A stretch of DNA of 26,358 bases. Origin: a virus. The position numbers and the translations under genes are program-made. The stretch is from positions 1-26,358 of IMG/VR virus record IMGVR_UViG_3300042392_000347; one strand, written 5' to 3'. Shown piece after piece: positions 2,662 through 24,913 of the stretch. The notes under the pieces are model-generated. The model searched no databases and had not been told where the DNA came from. It was given only the letters and a program-made list of their open reading frames with translations. The stretch's first letter is position 1; each line of letters begins with the position of its first letter.

Positions 2662-3708
2662 TTATTTAGTCATCCGGGCAACTCTGGCGGCAACCCAGTC
2701 CTCAACAGATTGTGAGGATTGAAACCTTTGGTAGGCTTGATCAGCACCCTTCTTCGCGGTCTTCGCACCTGCTTTCGCCGCTCCAGCACCATACGGGGTT
2801 CCAGCTACTTTTGGCTTGGAAATAGTTCCCGCTGCTTTTGCCGCGCTCTTGGTCTTCTGACTGCGATGGATGGATCGTACTGCGTGTGCCAAAATATACG
2901 GGAGTTGCGGCCCGAGGTCTGGAACATGCAGGTTAACCAGTTCAACTAGTGGGTCAGCTAGGAGTGCCTTGTATTGTTTACCGATGTCGGATTCCTCGTC
3001 GGCAACCTCTGGGACTTCCTGCGGGATCAACCCGGTGAAGTGTTCCCGTGCCTGCTCGCGTTGTCCTCGCTTGGCGATTTCTGCATGCTGGGCTGGGAGG
3101 TATTTTGCCATGGCTTCCCGCGCATTGCGGTTAGCCCGACGAATCTCTTTCTTCGTAAACTCCTTGTCACCTAGGACGATGATGTCTTCAGCACCATAGT
3201 CTTCGTGTTCTTCAAGGATTGTGTCGGTTTCCTCCGCGACCTTCTCCAGTTCCGCATATTTAGCTTGTAGCCCCTCGACACTGTCGATGTCACGGAAGGG
3301 GTTTTGCTCTGCTGGAATTACTGGTAGTGGTTTCGTTTCGGCCTGCGAGTTCAGCTTTTCCTCAAGTGCCTTCTTTTGCGCTGTAAGCTCACCCACTCGG
3401 TGTAGCAAACGGCTGCGGCTCTTTTTGGCCAATGCTTGGATCTCTTCAGGGTTTAGCGACAACAAGTCTACTTCCTGTTCCTCTTCGCCTTCTTCCTCGG
3501 CTTCTTCTTCTTCGGGTTCTTCCTGTTCGTCGGAAACTGCCTCTGGCTCCAGAGTCTCTTCCTCTTCCCAAGAATCATCCTCAGTTTCAGTAGCTTCGGC
3601 TTCTGGTTCTGAGTACTTCTGACTCCTTTGGTTGATTAAATCTTCAAAGGATATGTTATTAGACAAGGGGTTTTCGGCTCCCTCGATAGCCTCGGATTGC
3701 ACATTCAT
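2662..3708 (-). CDS. Capsid scaffolding protein (348 aa)
   Basis: Internal scaffold that directs shell assembly and then leaves. Residues about 30-80 are extremely acidic, with long runs of Glu, followed by a predicted coiled coil (LLHRVGELTAQKKALEEKL). A helical middle follows, and the tail is Lys/Ala-rich and basic (TAKKGADQAYQRFQ, then VAARVARMTK), a usual coat-binding arrangement. The gene sits directly upstream of the capsid gene. I chose the ATG at 3708; an in-frame TTG at 3753 would add 15 residues including an Arg run and cannot be excluded. No Shine-Dalgarno sequence precedes either. The upstream region holds the repeats and inverted repeats described separately. Confidence 0.82.
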   Translation of the reverse strand: MNVQSEAIEGAENPLSNNISFEDLINQRSQKYSEPEAEATETEDDSWEEEETLEPEAVSDEQEEPEEEEAEEEGEEEQEVDLLSLNPEEIQALAKKSRSRLLHRVGELTAQKKALEEKLNSQAETKPLPVIPAEQNPFRDIDSVEGLQAKYAELEKVAEETDTILEEHEDYGAEDIIVLGDKEFTKKEIRRANRNAREAMAKYLPAQHAEIAKRGQREQAREHFTGLIPQEVPEVADEESDIGKQYKALLADPLVELVNLHVPDLGPQLPYILAHAVRSIHRSQKTKSAAKAAGTISKPKVAGTPYGAGAAKAGAKTAKKGADQAYQRFQSSQSVEDWVAARVARMTK

Positions 3709-3795
3709 GTTTTTGACACCAGTTAACGCCCGGCGGCGGCGATGACCTAGCAATGTGGAGGGAGTTAATATAAGTCAACAATGGGGGCATATGGG

Positions 3796-3814
3796 TGTGG
3801 ATAGGTGTGGATAA
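3796..3814 (-). promoter_or_regulatory. Two DnaA-box-like 9-mers in tandem
   Basis: On the minus strand TTATCCACA (3806-3814) is an exact match to the E. coli DnaA-box consensus. It is followed by CTATCCACA (3796-3804), one mismatch away. A third one-mismatch copy, TTATCCACG, lies on the plus strand at 4094-4102. The pair is about 60 bases from the three tandem 12-mers. DnaA recruitment and origin function are inferences from motif and arrangement. Confidence 0.45.
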
Positions 3815-3820
3815 CTATAT

Positions 3821-3848
3821 GTCAGAAATAATGTGTAGTTTTTCTGAC
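3821..3848. repeat. Inverted repeat GTCAGAAA / TTTCTGAC
   Basis: Two perfect 8-base arms at 3821-3828 and 3841-3848 are separated by 12 bases. The repeat lies between the DnaA-like boxes and the tandem 12-mers, upstream of the scaffold gene. It could be an operator or an mRNA leader hairpin. It has no run of T after it, so it is not a convincing terminator. Confidence 0.5.
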
Positions 3849-3875
3849 GAAAATCGTGTGGTCTTATTGCGTTAT

Positions 3876-3911
3876 CGTCGGAGAAAATGTCGGAGTAAAT
3901 GTCGGAGTAAA
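3876..3911. repeat. Three tandem 12-bp repeats
   Basis: CGTCGGAGAAAA (3876-3887) is followed by two identical copies of TGTCGGAGTAAA (3888-3899 and 3900-3911) without gaps. The region has no convincing gene. Directly repeated short elements beside DnaA-like boxes resemble an iteron or origin-unwinding array; an activator site for the capsid operon is the alternative. Because 12 is a multiple of three, the repeat keeps overlapping reading frames open and makes false ORFs. Confidence 0.85.
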
Positions 3912-3967
3912 TCCACGCCACCAATATGGATATTTTGACGGGTAATTTGTGGGTTGACAGGCGTGGA
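3912..3967. repeat. Inverted repeat TCCACGCC / GGCGTGGA around the control region
   Basis: Perfect 8-base arms at 3912-3919 and 3960-3967 are 40 bases apart. The left arm touches the tandem 12-mers. The right arm lies in the spacer of the plus-strand promoter candidate, so a protein bound to both arms could loop the DNA and control both directions of transcription. That function is inferred. Confidence 0.55.
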
Positions 3968-3982
3968 AACCCAGAGTAGGAT
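3954..3982 (+). promoter_or_regulatory. Sigma70-like promoter facing the structured noncoding region
   Basis: TTGACA (3954-3959), a 17-base spacer and TAGGAT (3977-3982) give a consensus -35 box and a four-of-six -10 box at ideal spacing. The predicted start near 3989 lies just before the first element of the hairpin-rich stretch. The direction is opposite to the neighbouring virion genes. The tRNA promoter candidate at 23820-23848 has the same design (TTGACA, 17, TACCAT). Confidence 0.5.
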
Positions 3983-3988
3983 TCGCCT

Positions 3989-4498
3989 TGACGGGAAGTG
4001 AGGCTTGTCGTTACCATTCACCCCTCCAGTTCGTAAAGGTCTGGACGCAAGGGCTGGCACGGGTTCCTCACTTCCCCGTGCTAGCCCTTTGCCTTATCCA
4101 CGGGGTTGGTGACATATTCAAGGAATCGAGGAACGCTCAAACGACCGCACGAAACCTAGGTAAGAGTCTCACAGGGTACTGCGCTTGATGAATTTGCGGC
4201 GCAGTTAAACAGAGTGTGACGACCAAGGAGCTTGACGCAGACCTATAGCCTCAGCCCTCTGCTATCCTTGGTTCCAGCCTTGCTGGTATGTAAATCGACC
4301 TTTCCGACGATATACGGGAGTTAGAAGCATAGTACTCGCCACATAAGGCGAACTATGCCTACGAGCCTTCCTCCTCAGCCGGGAGTTGGGGTATGTGCTA
4401 ATGTATGAGAAACTGGACGAAAACCGTCCTAATTGTCGCATATTTCCACATATTAAGTCCTGCTTAACCGCTCAACTTGTAAGTATTGCTTACAGGTT
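3989..4498 (+). ncRNA. Candidate large structured noncoding RNA
   Basis: About 500 bases without a credible gene hold an unusual density of hairpins. In plus order: TCCAG/CTGGA (4025-4045); a 15-bp stem (4049-4063 with 4075-4089); GTCTCAC/GTGTGAC (4166-4220, one mismatch) enclosing ACTGCGC/GCGCAGT (4178-4205); ACCAAGGA/TCCTTGGT (4222-4272); CCAGC/GCTGG (4274-4286); GCATAGT plus TCGCC with their complements (4327-4358); GGACG/CGTCC (4415-4429); TTAAG/CTTAA (4453-4467); and a 10-bp stem (4474-4498). The imperfect pairs of the 15-bp and 10-bp stems are G-U wobbles on the plus strand but A-C mismatches on the minus strand, which favours a plus-strand RNA. A promoter candidate precedes it. I see no match to tRNA, tmRNA, RNase P or group I intron cores. 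The boundaries, especially the 3' end, are uncertain. Confidence 0.45.
3993..4089 (+). other. 15-bp hairpin with a loop complementary to an upstream 11-mer (pseudoknot)
   Basis: AAGGGCTGGCACGGG (4049-4063) pairs with CCCGTGCTAGCCCTT (4075-4089) with a single G-U. The loop sequence CCTCACTTCCC (4066-4076) is the exact complement of GGGAAGTGAGG (3993-4003). Nine of those 11 bases lie in the loop and two overlap the stem. A pseudoknot or a switch between two structures would explain both pairings. Confidence 0.65.
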
Positions 4499-4536
4499 CA
4501 AAAAGAAAGGCCACGGGGATGAAACCCGTGACCTTC
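4499..4536 (-). terminator. Rho-independent terminator at the end of the long virion operon
   Basis: On the minus strand AAGGTCACGGG pairs with CCCGTGGCCTT around a 7-base loop with one G-U, followed by TCTTTTTG. It lies about 70 bases behind the stop of the last small gene (4607). The wobble is a G-U only on the minus strand, which agrees with this direction. It separates the terminase-portal unit from the scaffold-capsid unit. Confidence 0.8.
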
Positions 4537-4606
4537 CCAAACCAATGAAACAATGAAACACACGCTAGGCGTGATGGGTAATGTTTACATTGTTACGGGC
4601 AAATTG

Positions 4607-4909
4607 TCAAGCAATCCGTTTTGGCCCAACTCCACCAGAGTATCCACCAGATTGCGGTTGAGGGATTCCCATGCCAGCTTGGCTACCTTGCGCTGCCATA
4701 CCCGACTGACCCATTCCACTCATGGAGTTTGGAATTGGAGAATATGTAGCGGACGACATTGTTCCACGCGCCTTGTTCGCAATTACGGGTGGTCGGTAGA
4801 ACATGCTTGTAGGCATTGCTTTTGCGGCTTGGGCTTTCATGGCATTCATGCCACCCATTGACTGCATCTTGTTGGAGATTGCCTTGTTGAGGCCTTGTCG
4901 ATTCATCAT
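4607..4909 (-). CDS. Hypothetical Met/Gly/Ser-rich 100-aa protein
   Basis: No family is recognised. The protein starts with two Met codons (ATG at 4909 and 4906; either could be used). It is very rich in Met, Gly, Ser, Gln and Ala, for example SMSGMGQSGMAAQGSQAGMG, ends in a Pro/Gly-rich tail (GGVGPKRIA), and is basic. Such low-complexity composition suggests a disordered protein. It is the last gene of the long operon before the terminator, 20 bases behind the 67-aa gene. A minor virion or assembly factor is possible but not shown. Confidence 0.65.
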   Translation of the reverse strand: MMNRQGLNKAISNKMQSMGGMNAMKAQAAKAMPTSMFYRPPVIANKARGTMSSATYSPIPNSMSGMGQSGMAAQGSQAGMGIPQPQSGGYSGGVGPKRIA

Positions 4910-6015: not shown

Positions 6016-8091
6016 TTACTGCTGCATGCCTTGGGTTTGCATGCCACCCATCTCCGCAGGAGCCGTGCCGATGCGACCGATCTCTGCGTTCTGGGCCTGC
6101 TGGAGTTGGAACTGGTACTGCTCGGCGTATTTCTGGAGTCGCGTTGCGAATGCCTCGTCCGATTGTGCGCGTTGTGCGACATCTGGTTGTTGAACATACG
6201 CTTGCACAAGCTGCATTGCGATCTGTGCGCCATTGGGCTGGGCAGGAACCTCGATGCCTGCGAAGATTTTGGCGAGGTCGTCCGTGACATTCTTCATGAC
6301 CTTCTGCTGCGCTTCCTCTGCTGGTTGCAGGACATAGTCGGCAAAGATCGGATTGATGCTAGAAGCCGTGAATTCAAGTAGCTTATTGACATCCATGATG
6401 CCGTTGCGGTCGAGTTGTACCAGAGACACCATGTTTTTCAACTGCGTCTCGGCAGTCTCTGGGTCATTGCTCTGGGAGTCGAAGTTGACCACGATGGAGA
6501 AGTTCTCGTCAGCAGAACCCTTGGTCATCACCTGCGGGTTGGGGTTGCCAGTAACTTGGAAGAACACCTCATCAGGCCCCATGCGTTGATACAGCTTCCA
6601 AGCAAGGTTCAGGACATCACGCACATGGTCTAGGAACTTGGACACGAAGTATTGCTGCCTCATGGACGAGAGCGGATTGTTAAGGTCGAGACCAACGCTA
6701 CGGTCTGCCTGTCCGATCATCGAAACCTCAACCTCTACGGAGCCAGAGTCCATAGGTGGTGTCGGCCCCCACTGGATCTCACCCAGACGACGATATGGGA
6801 TGCGCCTGCCCGGCCCCCAGTCGGAGGGAGGCTTGCCAGCAGGGTGCATGAGCGGAGGAAGGGTTGCCAGAGATGCGCGGTCAACACGCGAGTCACGCTC
6901 GGTTTTGATCTGGAGTTGTGCGCCACGGAGGATGTCCCCGAAGGTCTGCACCTCGTACATGCGCTTCTGGTTGTTAGACAAACGAGTTACCACAAACGGA
7001 TAGTCGTCATAGCCATTAAGAAGTTCGTGCTTGGCGTAGCCCTCTGCGGACGGGTGGAAAACGGTACAATAGATGCCCTCGCTGCCATCCTCTTCGTCAA
7101 TCAGACGCTGGTAGCCGTAGACCACCATGACGAGGTCGTTGTCGTCGGTAATTGGCAACCTTGTGATGTTCTTCTGCTTCTCCCCGTCGAGGTACATGCT
7201 GTCCTTGCCGCGAAGGTTTTCGATAGCGTAGTCAACCCAATCCTCGTCCCATCCCTCGTTCGTGACCTTCTTCTCCAACTCTTGAGCCGTGAGGAAGGTG
7301 CGCCAGAAAATGTAGGGTGACCGCTGCGGGTCAGAGACATAGGGCGGTAGGATGACCTCCCCGTCCGGGGCACAGGAATGGACGACCGGGCGATCCACGG
7401 TTACCCTCGGAATGGGCATTTGCGCCTCTCCCTTCGTTCTGAGGTCTTTGAGGGCCTTTCTGGCTCTCTTCCCCGAAAGTGCAGGGAAAGCCTGAGAAAT
7501 CAATCCTAGGGCCATTTCCGTGGCATTCTCGTCCATGAGCAGATCCACCATCTCTGGAGCGGCCTGCGCCACCTCGTCCAGAGTCATGGTTTGGAGGTAG
7601 GTACGGGACTCTCGCTGCCAGCCGACATAGGAGATCATCAATCCTTTTTCCAACAGATAGTTAGCCCCCAGTTCCATGTGTTCTCGGAAGTTGGGAATAT
7701 AGCTTGACCGCATCCACTTCAGGAATCCGCTGACCATCGCCGCCCGTGGCATGGATGCCATCGAAGTCGGGAATGCCTTGATGTGGGAGCGTTGGAGGGC
7801 TTGGTCGAAAAGTGCTACATAGGTATCGATCCGCTCACCAATGACATTTACCTCTTGGTCGGAGGCTCCCTCCCACGGGAATGCGTTAGCACCGTGCTTG
7901 CGGAGGTCGTCAGACTTACCTTCCCAGATATTGCGCCTCTCGTCATACGAACGCAGGCAGGACTGGAAATACTCATCGAGGTCTAGCAAAGCGGTCTCGT
8001 AGGCATAGGAAAGAGAACCAACATCTGGCTCCTTCTCCACATAGATCAACGCTTCACCCTCTAGGGCTTCTGATTCATATTCAGTTTCCAT
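6016..8091 (-). CDS. Portal protein, P22/podovirus-like (691 aa)
   Basis: Forms the dodecameric vertex ring through which DNA is packaged and ejected, and docks the terminase. The length (691 aa) fits the large P22-type portal class. The N-terminus is acidic and aromatic. Around residues 35-75 is a helical segment with RNIWEGKSDDLRKHGANAFP followed by WEGASDQEVN, a pattern I know from such portals. A long alpha/beta body follows, and the C-terminal 100 residues are Gln-rich and helical (ATRLQKYAEQYQFQLQQAQN), as expected for a barrel-like tail inside the head. Its start overlaps the 93-aa gene by 11 bases. It follows TerL in the packaging module. Assigned from sequence pattern, size and context. 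Confidence 0.9.
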   Translation of the reverse strand: METEYESEALEGEALIYVEKEPDVGSLSYAYETALLDLDEYFQSCLRSYDERRNIWEGKSDDLRKHGANAFPWEGASDQEVNVIGERIDTYVALFDQALQRSHIKAFPTSMASMPRAAMVSGFLKWMRSSYIPNFREHMELGANYLLEKGLMISYVGWQRESRTYLQTMTLDEVAQAAPEMVDLLMDENATEMALGLISQAFPALSGKRARKALKDLRTKGEAQMPIPRVTVDRPVVHSCAPDGEVILPPYVSDPQRSPYIFWRTFLTAQELEKKVTNEGWDEDWVDYAIENLRGKDSMYLDGEKQKNITRLPITDDNDLVMVVYGYQRLIDEEDGSEGIYCTVFHPSAEGYAKHELLNGYDDYPFVVTRLSNNQKRMYEVQTFGDILRGAQLQIKTERDSRVDRASLATLPPLMHPAGKPPSDWGPGRRIPYRRLGEIQWGPTPPMDSGSVEVEVSMIGQADRSVGLDLNNPLSSMRQQYFVSKFLDHVRDVLNLAWKLYQRMGPDEVFFQVTGNPNPQVMTKGSADENFSIVVNFDSQSNDPETAETQLKNMVSLVQLDRNGIMDVNKLLEFTASSINPIFADYVLQPAEEAQQKVMKNVTDDLAKIFAGIEVPAQPNGAQIAMQLVQAYVQQPDVAQRAQSDEAFATRLQKYAEQYQFQLQQAQNAEIGRIGTAPAEMGGMQTQGMQQ

Positions 8092-8364: not shown

Positions 8365-9963
8365 TTAGTATCCTCCTGTGCCTTGTCTAGTTACAGCTAT
8401 ATGTGACCCGTCCACATGGTCAATACCAGAGATAGCGGCGTAGCGCAGGACATCTATGGGGTCTTTCCACGCCTCCTTCAGCCCACCGTCACCCGTGTAT
8501 TCACTCAGGGCTTGGATGATGTTCTCACACTCCTCGCTGACATAGAAATGCGGTCGGTTGACCGAATCTGACGGTATAGTTACATTAAATGACATTTTCC
8601 CGATCAAAGCTTGCAACCCATCGTCGATTTCCAAGCCGGGGGCGGGTATGCACACGATGCCCTCGTCGTTCAAATCCTCGATAATGCTACTAGCCCCATC
8701 TGCTGACTGGTACTTTGCCGCCCCAAGTCGGGGGTCAATGAGACGCTCTAGAATCTCCTCGTCACCCTCTAGGTCTTTTATGAGTTCCACATAGTCGCGG
8801 ATGCCGTATCCCTGCCCCTTTGCACCATCCCCAGCAACCCACTTGCCTCCTCGCCACTCTGCCCAGTCACCGACATCCACGCCCGGCCATTCCCTGTAGA
8901 CCCAGAATGTTCCAGTCGCGTCAACGGCAATCCAGCACATAAACCAATTTTTGGCTCCCGCAGGATCGACAATATGGTAGCGAGTCACATTTTTCGTTGG
9001 AATAGTGTCGGGGGATACCACATTTACCTCCTTGTTGAACCGGGGAAATTTGGTGGCGTGGGACTTGACTGGAACCCCGTACGCACGAATTAGGATCTCC
9101 TCCCTAGGCCTACCAACCAAAGTCTCCTTAATCCGCTCGTAGCCACCGAAAGGGTTGTCCTGTGAATGGAAATAATGGACGCTGGCATTGCGCTTCTTAC
9201 TCCGCTGGACATAGGGGACAAGCTCGCCATTTAGCAGTTCAGCCTCGCGGCTCTCTATGCTGGTGGCTCCATCCAAATACTCCTTGATCACCTCCGTGTA
9301 CCCGTCAATTGGGGTGAAGGTGAGCAGTAGCTTTGCGTTGCGGGTTGCCAGTCGGAACCGCAGGGTGTTGATCAACTCAGGCCCAAGCAAATACTCATCC
9401 AGCCAAACGCCCACATTATGCCAATTAGGAGAGCGAGAACCCAACTCCGCTCCCTCCAAGATGGTCGGGTTGTTCTGGTACTGGGAGTAGGTCTTAAATA
9501 TGATCTGAGAGCCGTTGGGTAGGATGAGCGATGAGTCGGTAAATCCATTCTTCTTCGTGTAGCTAATGTATGTCCCGGATGAAGTCTGCTTCGTGCGTAG
9601 CTCCGCTGGAAGCCAATCCCACACGGCACTCTGCTGCTGGCGAATACTGACCTCGGAAGTCTGTGCGAAGCACATGATCTCGGCGTTGGGGTTCTCTATA
9701 GCAGCACGCACCACGGAGAATGCGCCCCACTGCGTCTTGCCGCTGCGGTTGCCGCCTAGTGCCACGATCTCGTTTACCTCCTGCAACTGATCCTCTGCCT
9801 TCGCCCAGTGGGGGAGTCGGAAGCCAAAGCGGTACGGGTCGCGTTCTGCGTTGTCTACGGCTTCGTGATAGACCCTGTGAAGCTCGATAAGCTCCTCTGG
9901 CTCCATGAGGGAGATTTCCTCATCGGTCGGCGGGGAAAGGATCTGGTGGGTGCGCCACTTCAT
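8365..9963 (-). CDS. terL: Terminase large subunit (532 aa)
   Basis: ATPase and nuclease that pumps DNA into the head and cuts it. Walker A is GGNRSGKT at residues 70-77. Walker B is NVGVWLDEY near 183-191, with Asp189-Glu190. A coupling motif follows in LLLTFTPIDGY. The nuclease half begins around YHIVDPAGAKNW (first acidic residue in VDP), with later acidic candidates in RLIDPRLGA and DPIDVLRYA. The length is normal. I chose the ATG at 9963, whose ATGA overlaps the stop of the zinc-ribbon gene; the same frame is open upstream to 10026 but would overlap that gene by 67 bases. TerS, TerL and portal lie in one run. Confidence 0.95.
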   Translation of the reverse strand: MKWRTHQILSPPTDEEISLMEPEELIELHRVYHEAVDNAERDPYRFGFRLPHWAKAEDQLQEVNEIVALGGNRSGKTQWGAFSVVRAAIENPNAEIMCFAQTSEVSIRQQQSAVWDWLPAELRTKQTSSGTYISYTKKNGFTDSSLILPNGSQIIFKTYSQYQNNPTILEGAELGSRSPNWHNVGVWLDEYLLGPELINTLRFRLATRNAKLLLTFTPIDGYTEVIKEYLDGATSIESREAELLNGELVPYVQRSKKRNASVHYFHSQDNPFGGYERIKETLVGRPREEILIRAYGVPVKSHATKFPRFNKEVNVVSPDTIPTKNVTRYHIVDPAGAKNWFMCWIAVDATGTFWVYREWPGVDVGDWAEWRGGKWVAGDGAKGQGYGIRDYVELIKDLEGDEEILERLIDPRLGAAKYQSADGASSIIEDLNDEGIVCIPAPGLEIDDGLQALIGKMSFNVTIPSDSVNRPHFYVSEECENIIQALSEYTGDGGLKEAWKDPIDVLRYAAISGIDHVDGSHIAVTRQGTGGY

Positions 9964-10298
9964 AAGTTGGTCTTGTATGCGTCCGTTTCCGTGAGGATGT
10001 CGATTATCCGATAAACACTTCCGCATTTATCACATCCAAACGAATCATCCTCTGGAGGAAGTGATCCTCGGTTGCCATCCACAAAGTGAAGCTTGCTGTA
10101 TTTCTCACAGTGTCCGCAAAGACCAATGTGGGGAGTGATGAACTTCTCCAGCACCACATTCCAAACCTTAGCGTTGAACTTCTCGGCCAAATACGAGGCG
10201 TAGGCTAGGGTGTTGCACTTGTGATGGATGCCGTCCTGCTCCACCACATAGTGGTGAAATATCGGCCCATCAAATCTCGACTCTGGTTCTGGGATCAT
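9960..10298 (-). CDS. Small zinc-ribbon protein between the terminase genes (112 aa)
   Basis: Two Cys pairs, CGHC at residues 61-64 and CDKC at 89-92, are 24 residues apart and should bind one zinc ion as a ribbon. The N-terminal half contains several His (FHHYVVEQDGIHHKC) and a helix with ASYLAEKFNAKVWNVV. I see no nuclease signature such as HNH. The gene overlaps TerS and TerL by ATGA at both ends, so it is translated in step with the packaging machine. It may help recognise the packaging site or regulate terminase. The function is not known. Confidence 0.78.
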   Translation of the reverse strand: MIPEPESRFDGPIFHHYVVEQDGIHHKCNTLAYASYLAEKFNAKVWNVVLEKFITPHIGLCGHCEKYSKLHFVDGNRGSLPPEDDSFGCDKCGSVYRIIDILTETDAYKTNL

Positions 10299-10834
10299 GC
10301 GACAATTTCAGCCTCGACTGCCTTCGCCTTTACCTTGCTGGCAATGCGGCTTTTAGCCTCTGCGATCATCTTGGCGGCATCGTCGATAGATGCACCCTGC
10401 CTATGCTCCACAACCGCAGTAGCCATGCCAGAGAGTTGCATGGACTTGTCCGTTAAAACACCCACGGTGATCGCCAGTCGGTCTGGTGAGATGTTCTTGA
10501 GTTGGTCAGGGTCGTCAGCAAGTTGGTCTGCCTTCGCAAATAGCAGGTCGGTGTAGGTTTCAGCCGCCATCGCGTACTTCTGGCTAAACTCCTTCCGCTT
10601 CGTCTCCAGAGTGTCGCTGTGCCGCCACATGAGCGACCTCACGGTGTCACGGGCAAGCCCTGTGATCTCGGAGGTGGACTTGATGCTCTTGCCCTGTGCG
10701 AGCAGCCAGAGACACTTTGCCGCCGCCTGCGGGTTCCAGAACTCCACACGCTGCCTGTTACCGTGTTCCTCGGCTCGACGCATGACCTCTGCAAACCATT
10801 CTTGATCTGGTTCTGCGGTTAGTTTCTCGCTCAT
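10295..10834 (-). CDS. terS: Putative terminase small subunit (179 aa)
   Basis: Likely recognises phage DNA for packaging and stimulates TerL. Residues about 42-72 form a helix-turn-helix (LLAQGKSIKSTSEITGLARD, then TVRSLMWRH). A charged central helical part (KRKEFSQKYAMAAETYTDLL) fits the oligomerisation domain. The C-terminus is Ala/Lys-rich. Length and position, one gene before TerL, fit the role. The leader is A/T-rich without a Shine-Dalgarno sequence. TerS proteins diverge quickly, so the call rests on fold signature and synteny; another DNA-binding protein is the alternative. Confidence 0.75.
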   Translation of the reverse strand: MSEKLTAEPDQEWFAEVMRRAEEHGNRQRVEFWNPQAAAKCLWLLAQGKSIKSTSEITGLARDTVRSLMWRHSDTLETKRKEFSQKYAMAAETYTDLLFAKADQLADDPDQLKNISPDRLAITVGVLTDKSMQLSGMATAVVEHRQGASIDDAAKMIAEAKSRIASKVKAKAVEAEIVA

Positions 10835-23848: not shown

Positions 23849-23907
23849 CCAGCCAACAACACCTCCCACGCCTCTCTACGATGCGCACCAAGGGAGGTTG
23901 CTTTTTA

Positions 23908-23982
23908 TCCTGTGTAGCTCAGAGGCAGAGCGGGTGACTGTTAATCACTAGGTCGTTGGTTCGATCCCAACCGCAGGAGCCA
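23908..23982 (+). tRNA. tRNA-Asn (anticodon GTT) with encoded CCA
   Basis: All cloverleaf parts can be drawn. The acceptor TCCTGTG pairs with CGCAGGA with one wobble. The D arm is GCTC/GAGC. The anticodon stem GGTGA/TCACT encloses the loop CTGTTAA with anticodon GTT. The variable loop is five bases, and the T arm GTTGG/CCAAC carries TTCGATC. The discriminator is G and the terminal CCA is in the DNA. There is no intron. It probably supplies Asn tRNA during late expression; it stands alone and points against the virion operon. Confidence 0.95.
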
Positions 23983-24222
23983 TAAGTCAAGCGTAAGTAA
24001 AGTGCCACCCACAGGTTCGCATGCCGAGGACTAATTGCTCTTGCAGAGGCGCGGGGTGGTAGCGTCAAATTGCAGGGGGAACGCTAACTTGGCAAGTTCC
24101 CATTCGGGAACATCGAGATAGGATTGGGTGCTTGTGAGCGAAAATGCGCTAGTACGGGAATGTCGGCTTCGTGCGGCGTTAGGGTGGATAGTGGGTTAGA
24201 TGTGAGACAATGAATTTTACTT
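23983..24222 (+). other. Noncoding stretch with several hairpins between tRNA and endonuclease
   Basis: No gene is seen here. Paired segments are GCCACCC with GGGTGGT (around 24003 and 24054, one wobble) enclosing CTCT/AGAG, TAGCGT with ACGCTA (24060-24065 and 24081-24086), and GTTCCC/GGGAAC (24096-24111). They could be leader or attenuator structures in a transcript from the tRNA promoter. No T-rich tail follows any of them. Confidence 0.4.
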
Positions 24223-24256: not shown

Positions 24257-24913
24257 ATGTCCAACAACTGTGGAACCTACATCGTCAAATGCGGCAACAC
24301 CGCTTACATCGGATCAAGCTCAAATTTCCAGCAAAGGAAGTCCGCTCACAAGCGTGACCTTGAGCGGGGAATCCACCCGAACCAAAACCTTCAGCAGGCT
24401 TTTGACGGGTCACAGGACTTCTCGTTCATCCCTCACCAGTACATCACCCCAGTAGACTGCCCAAACGAGCTACGCACCATCCTGCGCAACGCAGAGCAAG
24501 CCCTGCTGGACGAGGCCGCGAAGTCAAACCTGTGGGTCATCGCAAACATCTCACAGAACGCATTCGGCCCACACGCAAGACCAGACATGGTGGCAAGGTG
24601 GCAAGACCCAGAGTTCCGTGCGTCCATGTCGAAAATGATCAAATCCAGAGTCATTAGCGACGATACCAAGCGCAAGATGTCGCTGGCAAAGCAGGGCGCA
24701 AACAACGCAAAGGCTCGCAAGGTCATCGTCACAAACCCAGACGGGTCAGAAACGACCTTTAGCACAACCACCGAGGCCGCGCAGTTCTTCCGAATCTCGC
24801 AGCAACTCCTGCACCTCATGCTCAAGGGCAAGACCGCTTGGCCGGGCAAGGGGAAGTTCATCCGCAACAAGGAAAACGAGTGGATGAGGGAATACGAGGC
24901 TAGACTAGTGTAA
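24257..24913 (+). CDS. GIY-YIG homing-type endonuclease with NUMOD domains (218 aa)
   Basis: A DNA-cutting selfish gene. The N-terminal nuclease has GTY (residues 6-8, variant of GIY), YIG (17-19), the catalytic-type Arg27 with His31, and Glu80 in NAEQALLDE. A NUMOD3-like DNA-binding motif, ISDDTKRKMSLAKQG, lies at 133-147. A NUMOD1-like helix-turn-helix module spans about 155-192 (TTTEAAQFFRISQQLL in its centre). The order nuclease, NUMOD3, NUMOD1 is usual for I-TevI relatives and bacterial group I or free-standing homing enzymes. It is on the plus strand against the virion operon and convergent with the helicase, with its own promoter candidate and terminator. No intron around it is visible, so it is probably free-standing. 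Confidence 0.88.
   Translation: MSNNCGTYIVKCGNTAYIGSSSNFQQRKSAHKRDLERGIHPNQNLQQAFDGSQDFSFIPHQYITPVDCPNELRTILRNAEQALLDEAAKSNLWVIANISQNAFGPHARPDMVARWQDPEFRASMSKMIKSRVISDDTKRKMSLAKQGANNAKARKVIVTNPDGSETTFSTTTEAAQFFRISQQLLHLMLKGKTAWPGKGKFIRNKENEWMREYEARLV

Follow-up and report, generated by a model that had tools for sequence, protein, structure and literature searches.

A putative new class of large structured phage RNA with cognate complementary loops in an exchangeable 5' domain

What, if anything, is encoded in a gene-free gap amid the virion genes of a phage? The window analysed here, a stretch of 26,358 nt from the IMG/VR record IMGVR_UViG_3300042392_000347, is a contig of a freshwater-type phage with its virion genes on the minus strand, i.e., the capsid (1643-2644) and terminase (8365-10026) genes recognized by PHROG matches and the scaffold (2662-3708) and portal (6016-8091) genes assigned by position and size. 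No gene is found at positions 3709-4606 between the flanking minus-strand genes at 2662-3708 and 4607-4909. For this gap, an initial annotation made from the sequence had proposed a conserved structured RNA of about 500 nt, antisense to the virion operon and representing either a further class or a distant member of the GOLLD or ROOL type.

Comparison with homologues places a structured noncoding RNA on the plus strand from 3989 to ca. 4391, with the 5' end predicted from a promoter and the 3' end set at the limit of conservation. Since conservation ends just past GCCGGGAGTT, the conserved RNA spans only ca. 400 nt and is thus shorter than first annotated; no obvious intrinsic terminator sets its 3' end in the window. 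The locus sits between the scaffold-gene operon and a terminator-like hairpin with a T run on the minus strand (about 4498-4535), recognized from the sequence, which marks the end of the upstream minus-strand operon, lies in the flank outside the RNA, and has comparable counterparts in relatives without the RNA. The annotated antisense orientation therefore holds in that the RNA runs in reverse within the intergenic gap, but it overlaps no gene. The sigma-70-type promoter predicted upstream (TTGACA-17-TAGGAT; 3954-3982, plus strand) had already been recognized in the initial annotation and recurs among homologues: type A copies almost without exception and the majority of type B copies (see below) have TTGAC, a spacer of 16-17 nt and a -10-like box at a near-constant distance to the RNA start, while no clear equivalent is apparent in types C and D and in contig L161. 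Immediately 5' of this promoter, the motif GTCGGAG(T)AAAT is present in three near-tandem copies (3878-3912). A coding explanation for 3989-4391 was rejected because no long open frame is kept through the RNA across homologues, in agreement with the annotation of the stretch as gene-free.

The distribution of this RNA was followed from 80 related contigs gathered via the capsid protein, of which 20 hold the RNA region at the same place. A pattern derived from its invariant core (GAGGAACGCTNNAACGACC) retrieved further copies, and a gapped pattern added contig L129 and one bacterial MAG contig (L161). Profile or model searches exposed the pattern matches in L107, L127, L128, L130-L140 and L195-L197 as well as 10 of 11 matches in bacterial genomes as chance; the unrelated viral contig L127 carries a Type II hammerhead ribozyme (RF02276, 52.5 bits) at 1127-1199 on the plus strand. 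This leaves 47 other viral contigs besides the window and L161. The latter belongs to an Akkermansiaceae MAG in genome_contigs (cmsearch E about 1e-17) and has two terminase small subunit genes downstream of the RNA on the same strand. L161 is hence of phage origin, and an antiparallel orientation of the RNA to the genes around it is not universal. Across the phylum of this MAG, the core model matched one of 388 genomes.

These copies fall into several types as judged from sequence-based alignments in which many contigs are fragments. Type A comprises the window and most copies and has its core in common with type D (L095 and L125), L161 and type B (L098, L111, L112, L123, L124 and L129), which is found in the same kind of phage at another genome position. 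Around 12 more contigs (type C; about 12-13 including L198 and L200) carry the same 5' domain, the only part common by sequence, ahead of a different body in the same slot as type A, which brings the total to ca. 60 related virus contigs. In L200 (3380-3764), a hairpin loop of the type C body is enlarged by an insertion of ca. 70 nt, which a tolerant RNA loop would be expected to accommodate. Several close relatives lack the RNA region and have a short intergenic stretch in the same slot, and six relatives with viral records of 36-40 kb lack the RNA over the full length of the record, which indicates an accessory gene. Absence from close relatives had been named beforehand as evidence against a conserved RNA and is indeed observed in several of them, but about 49 conserved, covarying copies remain, so that we read it as a sign of an accessory gene and not of a chance fold. 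No convincing partner protein emerged when the genes of phages that have the RNA were compared with those of phages that lack it.

How well is the fold of the RNA body supported? The folding energy of the window copy is -190.4 kcal/mol on the plus strand (z = -5.6, compared with z = -2.95 on the minus strand), but z-scores in 16 relatives were weaker (mean -2.4 for the plus and -1.8 for the minus strand) and so modest that folding energy alone is no proof. Stronger evidence comes from the alignment. Although built on the same sequences as those tested and hence favoured over slid versions, a 92-pair structure across 28 type A sequences shows 89.8% standard pairs compared with 34-42% for slid partners, and a covariation of 0.201 compared with at most 0.080. 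For the core alignment of types A and B, to which the same bias applies, 352 of 352 cells are paired with 73 double changes (slid partners, 23-46% paired) at a covariation of 0.615 compared with at most 0.145 in slid controls. The weight of the argument is the size of these gaps together with the double changes. In well-aligned helices, about 116 G-U cells greatly outnumber 14 A-C cells, in favour of the plus strand. Covariation in homologous regions, which the initial annotation had asked for as a check, is present, and its conserved fold, plus-strand bias in G-U pairs and "ten or more" hairpins are all borne out, with 15 helices counted on the alignment.

From 5' to 3' on the plus strand, the body begins with core hairpin H2 (4121-4157), which surrounds the invariant GGAACGCUNNAACGACCG and is supported by conservation and covariation. 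It is followed by stem P4 (GTC.CAC/GTG.GAC; 4166-4220) around hairpin P5 (4179-4204), seen as pairing on the alignment, and by the 9-bp stem H3 (4221-4273) with an inner H4 (4237-4262), where covariation is strongest. Hairpin H5 (4274-4286) is paired in all sequences and nearly invariant, H5b (TCCG/CGGG; 4303-4318) is invariant and hence outside the covariation test, H6 (4327-4358) covaries in its outer stem, and the 3' hairpin H7 (CTTCC/GGGAG; 4367-4385) is again seen as alignment pairing. For H5, H5b and parts of H2 and H7, near-invariance means that covariation speaks neither for nor against them. Taken as a whole, the comparison establishes computationally that the RNA has a conserved plus-strand fold.

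The 5' domain is organized differently. It starts with hairpin P0 (TGACG/CGTTA; 3989-4013), seen in the pairing test and the alignment, whose loop forms kissing strand a (GGGAAGTGAGG; 3993-4003). After a small hairpin P1b (TCCAG/CTGGA; 4025-4045, 70% of alignment cells paired) follows the 13-bp, terminator-like hairpin P2 (4049-4089), supported by pairing tests and a motif scan, and its loop contains kissing strand a' (CCTCACTTCCC; 4066-4076), which is complementary to 3993-4003; all these elements lie on the plus strand, and both kissing strands are supported by complementarity tests and the motif scan. In all types, the P2 hairpin is GC-rich and has a U-rich tract on its 3' side, which is interrupted in the window copy (TTTGCCTTAT). 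The 5' domain escaped RNAalifold when the full A1 alignment was used, and P1b and the kissing helix appear only 70-75% paired on the MAFFT alignment, in both cases because the changing loops are misaligned, and we therefore assessed this domain with per-sequence pairing tests instead.

Complementarity between the P0 and P2 loops extends over 7-12 bp while the letters vary from phage to phage. The loop helix is present in all 36 of 36 testable sequences, and none of 5000 partner permutations reached the real mean. Of the 28 distinct cognate loop pairs, all form at least 7 Watson-Crick pairs and 26 form 8 or more, compared with 2.6% of the 756 non-cognate combinations that reach 8 pairs. A motif scan that disregarded sequence and covered 4.2 Mb of strand gave matches almost exclusively at these RNA loci, with a few unrelated windows, and its reversed control gave 6 raw matches. 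We found no consistent further site in the genome complementary to the loop sequence, i.e., the partner lies within the RNA itself. In L198, the 5' domain of type A is fused to the body of type C with the junction right after the U tract, so that this domain is exchanged as a unit. Both cognate loop complementarity and module swapping are thus demonstrated at the computational level. Such strict cognate pairing between loops of changing sequence is compatible with an internal tertiary lock, with contacts among copies of one RNA and with a type-specific switch, without distinguishing among them.

What, then, does this locus produce? The next gene lies on the opposite strand about 150-480 nt away in 35 of 37 type A copies, and up to that gene the RNA strand is free of ORFs of 80 codons; together with the lack of a conserved frame, this makes the RNA itself the likely product. 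We therefore favour, with a probability of roughly 0.68, a stand-alone and accessory (moron-like) phage gene whose product would be a structured RNA of ca. 400 nt with a structural role in trans, because the copies are usually solitary and show strong conservation of the body. A host-type RNA polymerase would start at about 3989, and the emerging 5' end would fold at once into P0, whose loop would pair with that of P2 over 7-12 bp into a compact 5' domain, leaving the 5' end base-paired from its first nucleotides. Given a 5' end that is paired and locked by the kissing pair, we infer that the RNA is stable. The body would then fold around its nearly invariant core (H2, P4/P5, H3/H4 and H6), and the RNA, much like GOLLD or ROOL, may have a stable structural role in trans, either by itself or together with a host protein. 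The kissing pair would serve as a cognate lock that acts inside a single molecule or links copies of one RNA to each other. It is possible rather than probable that the interchangeable 5' module constitutes an orthogonal self-recognition code, in which the RNA of each phage pairs with itself but rarely with that of another, and by which these RNAs assemble with their kin or exclude phages of the same type through RNA-RNA recognition with no need for a protein specificity factor.

The resemblance of P2 and its U-rich tract to an intrinsic terminator, also seen in weak ctRNA-like Rfam matches, speaks against this stand-alone structural RNA, because much transcription could stop at about 105 nt and the body would then be a read-through product. 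For the same reason, an antisense switch stays the main rival, though an unlikely one. In the P4 CI and P1/P7 C4 antisense RNAs, a hairpin loop is complementary to another segment of the transcript and specificity differs between phages. By analogy, transcription would usually end at P2 and free an RNA of ca. 105 nt; its exposed loop would bind in trans to the P0 loop of another nascent transcript of the same type and block read-through there, and differences among the loops would amount to specificities of immunity or incompatibility. The presence of the terminator-like P2 in all types, the orthogonal, fast-changing and always self-complementary loops, and the module exchange at the U tract in L198 fit this view, as does the complementarity of a loop to another segment of the same RNA; noncoding RNA complementarity to leaders has been recorded for P1, P7, N15 and P4 (PMC7567579). 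However, the 35 of 37 type A copies described above lack a downstream gene to control, no third complementary site is consistently found, and a switch has no need of the covarying fold in the ca. 300 nt of conserved body that follow the 5' domain. In addition, the Rfam C4 model matched neither the window copy nor the B and C copies.

A control function in cis, i.e., a structured leader or attenuator of an accessory gene downstream on the same strand, is very unlikely. Some copies do precede an ORF on the RNA strand, e.g., for a DNA methyltransferase (L098), a PAPS reductase (L105) or an endonuclease VII-like protein (L143), but these ORFs are mutually unrelated and passenger-like, and the many type A copies without any ORF refute this as a general function.

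We also consider it highly improbable that the RNA is a distant member of GOLLD, ROOL, OLE or another catalogued large RNA, despite its being large, ornate, phage-borne and accessory and the presence of a tRNA-Asn elsewhere in the window. The Rfam search that had been suggested for this locus gave one chance-level match up to E=5 and none that was significant for the window copy at gathering and relaxed thresholds, and chance-level matches only (including weak ctRNA-like ones) for B and C copies. The GOLLD and ROOL covariance models matched neither the window copy (up to E=5) nor the B and C copies, and no tRNA, tmRNA, RNase P or group I/II intron was recognized in the RNA by covariance models or ARAGORN, as the annotation had anticipated. 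Searches of GenBank phage records yielded chance matches of 27-31 bases for the window copy and no match for copies of types B and C, and a search of openly accessible journal papers gave no description of the RNA. GOLLD and ROOL are frequently, though not universally, found close to tRNAs, whereas the sole tRNA of the window at 23908 is ca. 19.5 kb away from the RNA, and many GOLLD members exceed 800 nt (PMC12286853) compared with about 400 nt here. Alike are the large and elaborate fold in a phage and the pseudoknots or kissing contacts (here predicted from sequence); unlike GOLLD and ROOL, the RNA has variable self-matching loops on a 5' module that is common to other bodies. The best reading is thus that it constitutes a new class within a loose group of large phage RNAs, akin in kind to GOLLD and ROOL yet unrelated to them, as one of the two annotated options had it. 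RNA-only assemblies are known for the GOLLD/ROOL group (PMC12286853), and one GOLLD is dispensable for phage production (PMC7567579). The abundant noncoding RNA of ca. 800 nt in phage ICP1, a highly expressed region without an ORF (PMC7567579), is comparable by description and differs in phage and size.

Little credence can be given to a packaging RNA that forms a loop-loop ring on the portal. The pRNA of phi29 has a pair of complementary loops that stay matched although their letters change, as seen here, and the present RNA is flanked by the portal and capsid genes in group A and precedes terminase small subunit genes in L161. Yet relatives with homologous scaffold, portal and capsid genes lack it, group B copies are located in another part of the genome so that the RNA is not tied to one genome position, and it is larger and pairs over a longer stretch than pRNA. 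A DNA element such as an origin or cis site would account for inverted repeats within an intergenic gap, but is scarcely plausible given the plus-strand preference for G-U over A-C, the upstream promoter at near-constant distance and the conserved unpaired core.

Other elements were observed on the window and its relatives. Immediately 5' of the tRNA-Asn, an abiF RNA (RF03085, 47.5 bits) at 23862-23898 on the plus strand has similar copies in L166, L176/L095 and L188; no AbiF/Abi_2 gene was recognized nearby, and it is possibly an orphan antitoxin-like RNA against host AbiF defence. L095 has an abiF-like RNA (10586-10637, minus strand) as divergent neighbour of its type D copy (10712 onward, plus strand). 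On the 3' side of the tRNA, the ORF-free and strongly folding stretch 23985-24210 (plus strand) is a second candidate noncoding RNA with partial copies (77-89% identical) in L192, L168 and L173 and no Rfam match, followed by a homing endonuclease-like gene (24257-24913, plus strand; PHROG matches) on the strand opposite to the virion genes.

To our knowledge, few large phage RNAs are known, and the function of GOLLD and ROOL is not established in the literature covered here. Paired loops, a modular 5' domain and an accessory nature go beyond what had been noticed at this locus before. Because the RNA is accessory in otherwise similar phages, natural pairs with and without it exist, and its compact size, defined start and a strictly kept loop complementarity that can be broken and restored by mutation would allow its function to be tested directly. 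Exchange of the 5' module and the orthogonality of its loops raise the question of whether phages may use RNA-RNA specificity for assembly or exclusion.
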